Origin: Bryobacterales bacterium
GTDB lineage: Bacteria; Acidobacteriota; Terriglobia; Bryobacterales; UBA6623
Length of the DNA: 64,000 nt
NCBI GenBank assembly: GCA_028819235.1
Contig: JAPPMC010000312.1
Coordinates: forward strand, 37,927-101,926
Direction of reading: 5' to 3'
Shown here: piece by piece, positions 31,456 through 43,083 of the stretch
Numbering within the stretch: the stretch's first letter is position 1
Layout: each line of letters opens with the position of its first letter
Notes under the pieces: model-generated
Seen by the model: only the letters and a program-made list of their open reading frames with translations
The model's database searches: none
Told to the model about the DNA's origin: nothing
Program-made: the position numbers and the translations under genes

Positions 31456-31807
31456 AGACCACCCGTGCGGATTCTAGGATCGCCTTTCGGCGAATGTAGT
31501 TTCGGCTCTCCTCAATGGCGGCCCGGCTAACCAGATCGACCCTGCGAGCGAACAGATCGGCCAGTTCCTGCTGCATCCCGGCCATGCCGAACAGGCCCGG
31601 TGTACGTTCCGACTTGAACCGGATCAACACGTCGATGTCGCTGTCCGGCCCGAAGTCGTCGCGTAGCACGGAACCGAATAGCGCCAATTCCCCCACCTGC
31701 CAGCGGTCACAGAAGGCCTCGATGGCGCTCAGGGATACGCCCACCCTGGCCGCCAGCCGCTCGCTGTCTTGGACGGCTCCGGTCGCCGACCGCGCGGAGG
31801 CCCTCAT
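31445..31807 (-). CDS. mntA: MntA-family antitoxin nucleotidyltransferase
   Basis: A 120-residue minimal nucleotidyltransferase. The catalytic pattern is intact: FGSVLRDDFGPDSDIDVLIRF contains GS followed by DID, and a third acidic residue lies in RRVDLVSRAAI. In characterised systems MntA inactivates HepT by AMPylating a tyrosine; HepT here has a tyrosine in HVYF next to the active site, which fits. The ATG overlaps the stop of the upstream methylase (ATGA), so translation was originally coupled to the methylase. The pair appears intact although the methylase is dead. Confidence 0.9.
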   Translation of the reverse strand: MRASARSATGAVQDSERLAARVGVSLSAIEAFCDRWQVGELALFGSVLRDDFGPDSDIDVLIRFKSERTPGLFGMAGMQQELADLFARRVDLVSRAAIEESRNYIRRKAILESARVVYAT

Positions 31808-34379
31808 TGCGACAATTCCACGATCTTGAGGCTCTCGACGCCCCGGTCGTCAACGATCTTGACGGCTGCGCACAAGTGCTCGCCAGCTTCGAACGGGAGC
31901 GAAACCGTGCCCCGGTATGCTGCCATCCGGGTCGCGTCGATCTCCGCCTTGAGGCTCTTCGCCAGCTTGGCCCATCCGTCGTTGCGGCCGGGCATCGGAA
32001 AGAACACTTGCCGCGGGAACAGGCTGCGTCCGTCGTAGTCGGGGTCCAGCATCCAGAGTGCGATCTTGTCGGCGTTGCCGGACTCGACATTCCCGCTCCT
32101 AGTGTTGTAGTAGGCGAATCCTTGCACCGAGACGCGGAACTTGCCTGCGTCCTGCTCCTCGGAGACGCGTTCGAGCGCCACGTCGGGCAGGCCGACGAGC
32201 CAAAAACTCTCGTTGCTCGCCCTCTTCCTTTTGAGGTCGTCCGCAAGCAGGTCCGCGTTCATCTGCGCCTTAAGCAGCGTTACACCAGGCCACTTCGTCT
32301 CCTCAATATCCTTGGACACCCCGGGGTCGAACTGGAAGGCCGCGAAGACGATGACCTTCGGTCGCGGAACCAGAAGTGACGCCTCTTCGATCGCGCGCGC
32401 CACCTGCCGTTGCTCCATCGGGGCATGATCCGGGCCGAACGACACCACTGCCCGGGCATTAGGTGAAGTGCCTTGGGCACCCGGTGCGGACGCCTCGCCA
32501 GGCCGCGTCTCCCCCTCGGCGTAAAGGTGCCTCTGGCCGGGCAGCGGCTCCAGCCGAACAAACGCGACGCGTTGACCATCCTTGCCCCGAATGCCGGTCT
32601 TCAGAAGCTCGTCGCGCCAGTCTCCCTGCCGGATAGTCGGTCCCGTCCGCGCCACCGAGTCGTCCGCCCGCAGCTCCTCCTGCTCGCCCACTTCATCGAG
32701 CGGGAGCACGGTGGGAGCTGGGACCGCTTCGACAGTGAACGGACCCGTGACGCGGGCCTTTGAGCGGTCGGTGAACGGCTGATCCTGAAGAACCGTCTTA
32801 TCCGGAAGCTGGCAGTACGCTAGTGTTCCAGCAGAGACCTTCGGAACGCATCGATACCTGAAACCGCCTCCGACCCCCTCCTGCGGGTGCGCCAAATCGT
32901 AGTAGTCGAAGTGCGCTGTCATAAGACGCTGCTTGGCTAAGGGCGTCGCTACACGTGACGTGTCGCAGGTGATCCACCGGCGTCCCCATTGCTCGGCGAC
33001 ATACGCCGCCGTTCCGCTCCCGCAGGTCGGATCGAAGACCAGGTCGCCCGGATCGGTGGTCATCAGAATGCAGCGCTGAAGCACCTTGGCGGCCGTCTCA
33101 ACCACATAGCGCTTGCCCTTCGGGAACATCTGTGCGGGCCAGAAGTTGCTGATCCGCCGACCCGGCACCTCTTCTTCATACCGCTTCCACCTAAGTGACG
33201 CTTGGCCCTCAGGTGCCACTAGCCTACCCAAGGCAGCAAGCCTGTCCAGTCCCTCGGGTGAGACGCGCCAGTGCTCGCCTGGGGGCACGCGAAACACGCG
33301 ACCATTCCATTCACAAGGATCGGAGCGCCCGGTTGTGGAAGTTCCTGGGGACATCGGGGGCATGCGTTGAATGGCACGCGCACCCTTGGGCAATTAGTGG
33401 CTTGGGTCAAACCGTTCTTCGGGGGTTAACGGTCGGCAGTGTCCGTCCGCTTGTTCGACCATCGCATAGGAGCTAAAGAACTCAATGATCTCGCGACGGG
33501 TCAGCGTCTCGTACAGCTGCCGATACTTCACTAGTCTCCGCTCCTTGGCGTACCAGAGCAGATAGTCAGCTCCCTTCGGAAGCGTCTTCGCCGAAGTGCC
33601 GCCGCCGGTCTCGTAGGAGATAGTCGCCATCCGGTTTTCTGCACCGTAAATGTCATCCATGACCAAGGCGACACGATGAACGTTTTCGTCGCCGATCTGC
33701 ACGAAACAGCTTCCGTTCTCATGCAAGAGCTCTCGCATCAGTACCAAGCGGTCCCGCAGACAGGAGAGAAACAGGAGTGAATACCGAGTTCCCACGTGTC
33801 GCGAAACGCGCGAATCTGCTCGGGCTCAGCCGTCAGGTCGGCATCCTTGCGATCGGTCACTTCACGCCGGTTCACGAACGGCTGGAAGTTGGAGCCATAC
33901 CGGATGCCGTAAAGCGGGTCCGTGTAGACCATTTGGACCTACCCGCCGAGCCCCTCCTTCTCGAGCAGGCTATTCATGACCAGAAGGCTGTCGCCCGCGA
34001 TCAGCCGGTTGGTCCAGTTGTGTCGGTGGCGGTAGAACTCGATGGCTTGGCGGAGGGGCGGATTCTCCTCCGGTGAAGCGAACAGAGACATCTGCCCGCC
34101 CGTTTCGTGCCGCTTGCGGACCGCTTCGATGATGGTGCGCGGGTCGATCCGCTCGTGGACGTGCAACGAGACCGTCGGCACCTCGAACGAAATGTGCTCC
34201 GCCTTGCCGGACCAGGAGAGATGCGGGTCAAGATGCGGGTCGTGGACGTACGGTTTGCCGTCAGTTTCTCGATCTGTGTGGGGTGTGACGAGGCCGACCG
34301 GAGGGTTGTTCACGCGCTCCTTGTCGGTGTGCGCGTAAGTGTCGATGTCCCGCCGTGCCTGTTTTCTTCGCCGTGCCAT
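31804..34379 (-). pseudogene. Broken site-specific DNA methyltransferase (type III/Mod-like)
   Basis: A gene of about 860 codons for a large adenine-type DNA methylase, now inactive. Pieces in order: 34379-33939 N-terminal part ending LLEKEGLGG, then an in-frame TAG where a lysine codon would be expected; the catalytic region [19 protein letters not shown], with DPLY in place of DPPY; a frameshift near 33785; GENVHRV-like and KTLPKGADYLLWYAK segments; an in-frame TAA at 33394; then 33393-31804 with the SAM-binding motif VFDPTCGSGTAAYVAEQ. Two nonsense changes, one frameshift and a catalytic substitution make inactivity near certain. The family usually pairs with a helicase-nuclease, absent here. 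A decayed second copy of its end is at 11770-12130. Confidence 0.85.
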
Positions 34380-34430
34380 GGCTACCCTTGGATGCCGAGG
34401 CACCGTGTAACACAAGGGGTCACGGGTTGG

Positions 34431-34502
<72 letters not shown>

Positions 34503-34536
34503 CGAGGCAACCACGCTGAGTCGGGGCCCAGCTTGG

Positions 34537-34609
34537 AGCGGGAGACGGGACTCGAACCCGCGACATCGACCTTGGCAAGGTCGCACTCTACCAACTGAGT
34601 TACTCCCGC
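34537..34609 (-). tRNA. tRNA-Gly (GCC)
   Basis: A 73-base cloverleaf on the minus strand. The acceptor stem GCGGGAG pairs with CTCCCGC, the anticodon loop is TTGCCAA with anticodon GCC, and the T arm is GCGGGTTCGAGTCCCGT. The CCA end is encoded (34534-34536). It lies 34 bases upstream of tRNA-Cys and is likely on the same transcript. Confidence 0.96.
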
Positions 34610-34866
34610 TCTGGTGCGAGTATAACGCACCGGGCGCTCGACTCTGGCGGTATACAGACTCCAGCGGTCGCCGCCCAACGCCTCGGACGCGCTCCCGTCG
34701 GCGTTGTCGCTCGGGTCAGCGGTGGCCTTGCCGGCTACAGCGCAACAGGGCCGTTTGGAGCCGGCAACTGAGCGAGCCCCACCGCCGAACGGTGCGGGAT
34801 TCCGCGCCGCCTAGCTATAATTGGCCCTGCGTCGGACCCGTATCCAGGGGTCCGCTCACGCAAGCG

Positions 34867-35892
34867 ATGGGCAGCGTCGATCTACGCACGCGTACGCGCC
34901 GGATGCTGCTGGGCCTGCACCGGCGGGCGCGCGAATTCCGGATGGTCGCCAAGGCTCTGGTCCACAAGGACCACCCCGTCTTGGCCCACGTGATCCCAAC
35001 ACGCCGCTGCAACATCGCATGCGCCTATTGCAACGAGTACGACCACGTCTCCTCACCGGTTCCGATCGGAGTCCTCAAGAGCCGGACGGACGACCTAGCG
35101 CGGCTCGGCGTCAGCATCATCACTCTCAGTGGCGGAGAGCCCATGCTGCACCCCCAGTTGGACGATCTGATCGCCCACATCCGCTCAAGAGGAATCATCG
35201 CCGGGCTGATCACCAATGGTTACCTGCTGGGCCCGGACCGCATCCGCCGGCTGAACGACGCCGGGCTTGAGTACCTGCAGATCAGCATCGACAATGTCGA
35301 GCCAGACGAGACATCGATGAAGAGTCTGAGAGTGTTGGACCGCAAATTGGAGATGCTCGCCGAGCACGCCGACTTCGACGTCAACATCAACTCCGTCGTC
35401 GGCTCCGGAATCCCCAATCCAAGCGATGCCTACACGGTCGCTAAGCGAGCTTTCGATTTGGGCTTCACGAGCACGATCGGCGTGATCCACGACGGCGACG
35501 GTCAATTGCAACCGCTTAGCCCGACGGAACGCCGCGTGTACGAACAGGTCAAAGCCTTCTCGAAACGTGGGTACAGCCGCCTGACATTCTTTCAGGACAA
35601 TCTGGTCAACGGCAAGGCCAACCAGTGGAGCTGTCGGGCCGGAGCTCGCTATCTGTACATCTGCGAAGACGGACTCGTCCATTACTGCTCCCAGCAACGA
35701 GGCACGCCAGGCATCCCACTCGCGAACTACGGGGTCGAGCACATTCAGCGCTCTTACCACACTCCGAAGGGCTGTGCACCGACTTGCACGGTGTCATGCG
35801 TGCACAAGGCATCAGCTGTCGACTTCTGGAGAGATCCGCACGGCCCGGTTCGCACCAGTCGACAAGGGCTGGCGACCGTGGTGGCCGAGTAG
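34867..35892 (+). CDS. Radical SAM protein with SPASM-like C-terminus
   Basis: A 341-residue radical SAM enzyme. The 4Fe-4S cluster motif is CNIACAYC (CxxxCxxC, residues about 49-56), and the SAM-binding SGGEPMLHP follows, then LITNGYLL. The C-terminal third carries extra cysteines in [21 protein letters not shown] and CAPTCTVSC, the layout of a SPASM or Twitch domain that binds auxiliary clusters. Such enzymes modify peptides or proteins or make cofactors. No precursor peptide is seen nearby, so the substrate is unknown. The ATG at 34867 is the first sensible start after the tRNA genes; the frame upstream to 34489 runs through the tRNAs and is not coding. Confidence 0.85.
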
Positions 35893-35900
35893 CAGCCGGT

Positions 35901-37247
35901 TCAATCGCGATCGAGCCACTGACAGGGCCCGCCCTCCGGACAGGCGAGGACCCTCATCTCCGGGGACTTGTGCTGGCGGGCCCAATCAGAACCGTTTACC
36001 AGCAGCGCCGTGGACCACGCCTCGGCGTCAGTCGCCGTCGATGCAACCACCGAGACCGCGACCAGACCTCGAGCGGGCCGGCCCGTGCGCGGGTCCAGAA
36101 TGTGGCCGTACCGGTCTCCTGCCCGCTCAAAGTACTTCTCGTAGGAGCCTGACGTGGACATCCCCTTGTCGCGGAGAGTGACGGATATGGCGGATCGGGC
36201 GGACGATTCCGCTCCGCGAATATCAAGCGACCAACCTGTCCGTTCGGCAGGTGGCGAACCCATTGCGAAGATGCTGCTAGTGCCAGAGCTGACAAGAGCG
36301 CTCGAGATGCCGTACCCGCGCAGGACCGAGACTGCGCGGTCCACGGCGTAGCCCTTCCCAATGCCGCCCGGATCAAGCTGGAGGCCGGAGCGCTCGAAGC
36401 GCACCTCCCGTCTCTCAAGATCAAGAAGCAGGTGCTGGTAGCCCACGTTTCGCCGAGCGCGCCACAGCGCCCAAGCGCTCGGCCAGTGCCCGTCGCCGCC
36501 ATGAAAGCCCCACGCTTTCACCAAAGCCCCGACGGTGATGTCAAAGGCCCCGTCGCTGGCCTCCGAGTAGCGCTGGCAGCGGACGAGCAGGTCCGCCAAT
36601 TCGCGAGAGACCCGAACAGGGGCATCGGCGGCGCCCTCGTTCACATGGCTCAGCTCGCTGTCAGGCCGATAGTTGCTAAGGAGCCGATCGACCCGACGGG
36701 CCTCGTCGAACGCCGCAGTAATGGCTCCAGCGGCAAGTTTCTTACTCTCCGCGTAGCAGGCGATCCGGAATTCGCTGCCCATTATGGACGCAGTGGACTC
36801 GAGGCGCTCCGGCATCGGCGAGGCGGATGCCGATGCGAGTGCCAGTGCCGCTGCCACGCACGCCAAGCCTGGCGGCGGGCGCTTCTTCTTCCTCGCCCGC
36901 TTTTCTATCCGCTTCAATAAGGTGTCAATGCGCTTTGCGTGGTGATCCGACAGGTCGTATGACCAGCGCAGCTCTGGGACGTGGCGCATACGCAGGTTCT
37001 TGGCGAGGGTCTTGCGGATGTAGGACGTGGCCTGTCGAAGCGCGTACAGCGGAGCGTCGCCTTCATCCGTGGCAGTGGCCGGATCCCAGAACGCGACGAG
37101 CACTCTCGCATGGCGCTTGTCCGGAGAGAGCTCGACCTTACTCACCCGTACTGCAGACGCCCGAGGGTCCTGCACGCCGTAGGTCACGATTCGGCTGAGT
37201 TCTCTCATGAGAGTGCCCTCGGAGCGCTGGTGCATGTGGGAGGCCAT
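35901..37247 (-). CDS. RbfA joined in frame to ApbE (ribosome-binding factor A and FAD:protein FMN transferase)
   Basis: One open frame of 448 codons encodes two unrelated proteins. Residues 1 to about 118 are RbfA, a 30S maturation factor: VQDPRASAVRVSKVELSPDK, HARVLVAFWD, ATSYIRKTLAKNLRMRHVPE and LSDHHAKRIDTLL. Residues about 145-448 are ApbE, which attaches FMN to exported proteins: STASIMGSEFRIACYA, GGIGKGYAVDRAV, GHILDPRTGRPA and TATDAEAWSTALL with the metal ligands. Between them lies a complete signal peptide: basic KRIEKRARKKKRPPP, hydrophobic GLACVAAALALAS, then ASAS. Codon 111 is TTG (36915-36917), exactly at the head of that signal, so ApbE could start there inside rbfA. No stop separates the two. 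RbfA works in the cytoplasm and ApbE outside it, so a single fused product is hard to picture. Confidence 0.85.
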   Translation of the reverse strand: MASHMHQRSEGTLMRELSRIVTYGVQDPRASAVRVSKVELSPDKRHARVLVAFWDPATATDEGDAPLYALRQATSYIRKTLAKNLRMRHVPELRWSYDLSDHHAKRIDTLLKRIEKRARKKKRPPPGLACVAAALALASASASPMPERLESTASIMGSEFRIACYAESKKLAAGAITAAFDEARRVDRLLSNYRPDSELSHVNEGAADAPVRVSRELADLLVRCQRYSEASDGAFDITVGALVKAWGFHGGDGHWPSAWALWRARRNVGYQHLLLDLERREVRFERSGLQLDPGGIGKGYAVDRAVSVLRGYGISSALVSSGTSSIFAMGSPPAERTGWSLDIRGAESSARSAISVTLRDKGMSTSGSYEKYFERAGDRYGHILDPRTGRPARGLVAVSVVASTATDAEAWSTALLVNGSDWARQHKSPEMRVLACPEGGPCQWLDRD

Positions 37248-37341
37248 GAACCGTGCCCATCATGGCACAGCAACACGGTCGGCCGACGCGTGCGGCGAGT
37301 AGCCCGAAGTGTGCAATTCTGAGGGTTACGAGGAGGGGGCG

Positions 37342-40231: not shown

Positions 40232-40260
40232 GAATGTTTGCACCAGCCGGTGCCAACGAA

Positions 40261-43063
<2,803 letters not shown>

Positions 43064-43083
<20 letters not shown>

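Follow-up and report, generated by a model that had tools for sequence, protein, structure and literature searches.

RbfA and ApbE in one inherited reading frame in two families of Bryobacterales

Can a cytosolic ribosome-assembly factor and an exported enzyme be carried on a single chain, and how would such a chain be placed in the cell? This topological oddity is posed by a gene in a 64,000-nucleotide stretch of Bryobacterales DNA (the window), where a fused rbfA-apbE open reading frame (35901..37247, minus strand) extends stop-free from ATG to TGA over 448 amino acids. An inverted repeat, GTGCC-ATGATG-GGCAC (37253..37268, minus strand), lies directly before the start codon, and its core, GCCATGATG, is mostly conserved within the genus. 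Further genes of the window include ORFs resembling one DNA methyltransferase split over several frames (31804-34415, minus strand), tRNA-Cys and tRNA-Gly genes (34428-34609, minus strand) overlapped by an over-long mechanical ORF (34489-35892, plus strand), and a SecA ORF (40234-43083), which is separated from the fusion by several kb.

Both parts of the fused protein are complete. Residues 7-111 (36915..37229, minus strand) form a KH-type RbfA domain, which scored 77.2 bits in Pfam (PF02033, E 1.4e-21; curated cut-off 34.7) and 73.8 bits in NCBIfam (TIGR00082; cut-off 51.15), and which was matched by RbfA chains of the PDB in sequence and fold. Residues 156-425 (35973..36782, minus strand) form an ApbE (FAD:protein FMN transferase) domain with 247.7 bits in Pfam (PF02424, E 1.9e-73; curated cut-off 25.6), an NCBIfam match below the cut-off only, and PDB matches to ApbE/Ftp/FmnB in sequence and fold. 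An AlphaFold model of the fused protein, which was of modest confidence (mean pLDDT 63.8) and gave nothing firm for the linker, predicted a KH-type fold matching the RbfA structures 2dyj, 8bxa, and 1jos (TMt 0.78-0.87). For close pairs, dN/dS amounted to ~0.05-0.24 in both domains (0.15-0.24 for RbfA where measurable) and to 0.09-0.52 in the linker, i.e., mostly weaker constraint than in the domains; judged by these ratios, both halves are under purifying selection. The domain architecture is new, and each domain by itself is ordinary. A search of the open-licence literature revealed no earlier report of an RbfA-ApbE fusion; the single paper found there to name both proteins is a Chlamydiales pangenome study, which mentions each of them once.

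Tyr193, Ser366, and His382 are invariant in the fused set. According to PDB alignments and residue spacing, Tyr193 corresponds to the flavin-contacting Y60 of E. coli, and Ser366 and His382 to Ser241 and His257 of V. cholerae. Glu409 replaces the triad Asp (Asp285 in V. cholerae) in every ortholog read, whether fused or separate, which is a conservative change. These residues suggest that the ApbE half is likely active. Four residues past codon 409, Lys is found in the third family (see below), f2, and g6, and Thr in most f1 members. The window genome encodes two additional ApbE proteins besides the fused one. No FMN_bind partner was found near the fused gene, and the only one detected in this genome adjoins another ApbE gene on contig C19.

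The earlier note had described rbfA as running into apbE without a stop codon, and had asked whether relatives keep the fusion or carry a stop between the genes, and whether a frameshift or stop had been missed at the joint. Relatives were searched first and then the order, covering 257 genomes. The open frame was recovered in 17 genomes from seven genera and two Bryobacterales families, comprising 11/11 genomes of the window genus, four further genera of the window family (G011-G014), and 2/2 genomes of the sister family (G018 and G020). No frameshift or stop was present at the joint in any of the 17, with the fused gene of G002 ending at a contig end inside ApbE. A TGA flagged in G008 proved to be the terminal stop of that gene and not an interruption. 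The recurrence of this open frame in 17 genomes, each assembled separately, rules out coincidence or a sequencing error, and likewise a frameshift or missed stop in the window. An artefact might have been suspected from the 318-contig draft state of the window genome, but it is refuted by these independent relatives, one of them assembled as a single contig, and we give it practically no weight. Among the fused relatives, identity to the window protein drops to 42%. Furthermore, a PF02033 search of the 17 genomes revealed exactly one RbfA in each, namely the fused one, and no second RbfA elsewhere. By these comparisons, the gene merger is inherited and has persisted over a long divergence, each time as the sole RbfA. 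Elsewhere in the phylum, no fusion was found among the best-scoring matches listed for an even sample of 396 genomes.

Separate genes, which the earlier note had named as a finding that would speak against the fusion, do not occur in the two fused families; they do occur in a more distant third family, usually as neighbours. There, a stop lies between rbfA and apbE at every locus opened, and 0/31 loci carry the fusion, 20 of which had been fetched because their ApbE frame is open far upstream. At most of these loci rbfA is directly upstream of apbE, with 60-243 bases from its stop to the apbE match; in L092 the distance is ~1 kb, and no rbfA was found within the fetched stretch of L030, L033, L034, and L095. 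Neighbour genes, named by eye from ORF sequences, follow the order rimP/nusA-infB-ylxP-rbfA-apbE or part of it in L074, L075, L076, and L079, often with heme genes thereafter. The fused gene is still in the nusA-infB neighbourhood in G013, G012, and G018, and is outside that operon in the window genome, in its congener G008, and in G014. One genus of the window family, g6 (G015-G017; L021, L023, L024, and L080), retains the ApbE half only: no RbfA match was found in its genomes, which are 93-99% complete, and the operon of G016 reads infB-ylxP-apbE. This genus offers a built-in comparison for the fused relatives. When two distant paralogs served as the root of the ApbE tree, long branches distorted the result; the tree was therefore rerun without them, with the root on the third family. 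In the resulting tree, a branch with support 100/96 sets the fused genes and g6 apart, requiring two changes in all, which is consistent with a single fusion and, later, one loss of the RbfA half on the g6 lineage. A tree holding the fused genes together without g6 was not rejected at the 5% level (AU p 0.07); therefore, the sequence of events involving g6 is tentative.

How the two halves could be placed is suggested by the joint. The earlier note had seen a basic run, a hydrophobic core, and an A-x-A-like site there, and this description holds for the window protein. The basic RbfA tail (residues 112-126, KRIEKRARKKKRPPP; 36870..36914, minus strand), identified by alignment and charge, is a putative signal-peptide n-region with a net charge of +8 over the 15 residues ahead of the hydrophobic segment. 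The latter, a candidate h-region (residues 127-138; 36834..36869, minus strand), sits exactly at the joint as the 12-mer of maximum hydrophobicity in 17/17 fused proteins. It is followed by a putative c-region with A-S-A (36822..36833, minus strand), for which the alignment predicts cleavage by signal peptidase I between residues 142 and 143. A-x-A-like small residues after the h-region are tightly kept in most members and loosely in G004, G012, G018, and G020.

Taken together, we consider it probable that this inherited fusion yields one chain with RbfA in the cytoplasm, its basic tail serving as n-region, and an exported ApbE that is probably cut off by signal peptidase. In an ancestor of the two families, the rbfA stop codon and the start of its downstream neighbour apbE would have been lost, and a single polypeptide would be made, the RbfA domain of which folds in the cytoplasm. 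The basic C-terminal tail of RbfA would have become the n-region of the former ApbE signal peptide; the chain would therefore insert N-in/C-out and place ApbE in the periplasm, where ApbE is usually exported and works (PMC12052999). The A-x-A-like site kept in the joint is probably cut by signal peptidase I, which would set ApbE free in the periplasm and leave a short membrane stub on RbfA. In E. coli, RseP, a site-2 protease, clears remnant signal peptides, and site-2 proteases may likewise remove this stub later; homologues of both signal peptidase I and site-2 proteases are present in the window genome. The near-zero n-region charge of seven members (see below) and the looser A-x-A fit of four speak against this reading.

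Alternatively, the segment could stay uncleaved, so that a stable bitopic protein holds RbfA inside and ApbE outside, with the anchor in place of the usual ApbE lipid. ApbE is usually anchored to the membrane (PMC12052999), and the basic tail of many members fits an N-in topology. We nevertheless regard a permanent anchor as unlikely, as the h-region, with its length of about 12-15 residues, is short, and as nearly all members keep, just behind it, a small residue in position -1 and, for the most part, A/V/L in position -3. A decayed signal, which would turn the entire fusion into a soluble bifunctional protein of the cytoplasm, agrees with the existence of cytosolic ApbEs (PMC12052999) and with the weak n-region charge of some members: in six G001-type proteins it is -1 to +1 over 15 residues, with a KK pair only, and G012, the seventh near-zero member, has a net charge of 0. 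This is highly improbable considering that the h-region has remained the top-hydrophobicity segment in all fused proteins despite the faster-changing linker, and that Cys436 and Cys442 in the ApbE tail are invariant in the fused set, matching separate exported-type orthologs.

An equally small probability is assigned to a dual start, by which the gene would yield ApbE both within the full-length chain and as a separate, internally initiated product, as proposed in the earlier note for a TTG at the head of the signal. This TTG is indeed codon 111 (36917-36915; 36915..36917, minus strand) and precedes the signal in frame in the window genome (G000) and in its nearest relative, G002. It is found in these two only, with CTC, CTG, CTT, or TTC in the other relatives, and it encodes a conserved Leu in the last helix of RbfA, the second of the two Leu residues in the terminal R-I-x-x-L-L motif. 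We therefore rejected the TTG as a start. Other internal starts are likewise improbable: between the RbfA end and Met156, no in-frame ATG, GTG, or TTG was found in G003 (L009) and G018 (L019), and a start at Met156, a structural residue that opens the ApbE core and is also found in separate orthologs, would lose the signal. Over the 17 bases preceding the TTG, anti-SD pairing was weak (-0.9 kcal/mol), with 86% of the ORF codons being equal or better; as the true start itself pairs unremarkably (-2.8 kcal/mol), this test is a weak one, and more weight is given to the codon comparison.

Returning to the single, probably cleaved chain, a more far-reaching reading is that RbfA might act as a membrane-tethered assembly factor, released via export and cutting of ApbE, by which 30S maturation would sense the Sec or envelope state. 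We regard this as distinctly unlikely. The fusion is in any event a natural test of whether RbfA works with a C-terminal membrane segment, and it would illustrate how a signal peptide may survive by adopting the basic tail of the upstream protein.

Compared to known RbfA proteins (PF02033/TIGR00082), the N-terminal half has the complete KH-type domain passing both cut-offs, is the sole genomic copy, and belongs ancestrally to the nusA-infB neighbourhood; however, known RbfA ends at 13-15 kDa, whereas here the C-terminus continues into a putative signal peptide and an enzyme. The other half shares with ApbE/Ftp/FmnB (PF02424) the full domain, the invariant flavin Tyr, the equivalents of the triad Ser and His, and the exported-type character, but carries RbfA at its N-terminus instead of a bare (lipo)signal peptide, and Glu in place of the triad Asp, like the separate orthologs of the order. 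Regarding topology, FecR is a type II single-span protein, the N-domain of which is released by RseP after outer cleavage (PMC8144685). A cytoplasmic N-domain, one span, and a periplasmic C-domain are predicted here as well, although the two proteins have no homology and the likeness is one of analogy only. ApbE within a larger chain is also known from trypanosomatids, where it is N-terminal, intracellular, and fused to fumarate reductase, its own substrate (PMC12052999). In the Bryobacterales protein, by contrast, ApbE is C-terminal, putatively exported, and joined to an unrelated ribosome factor.
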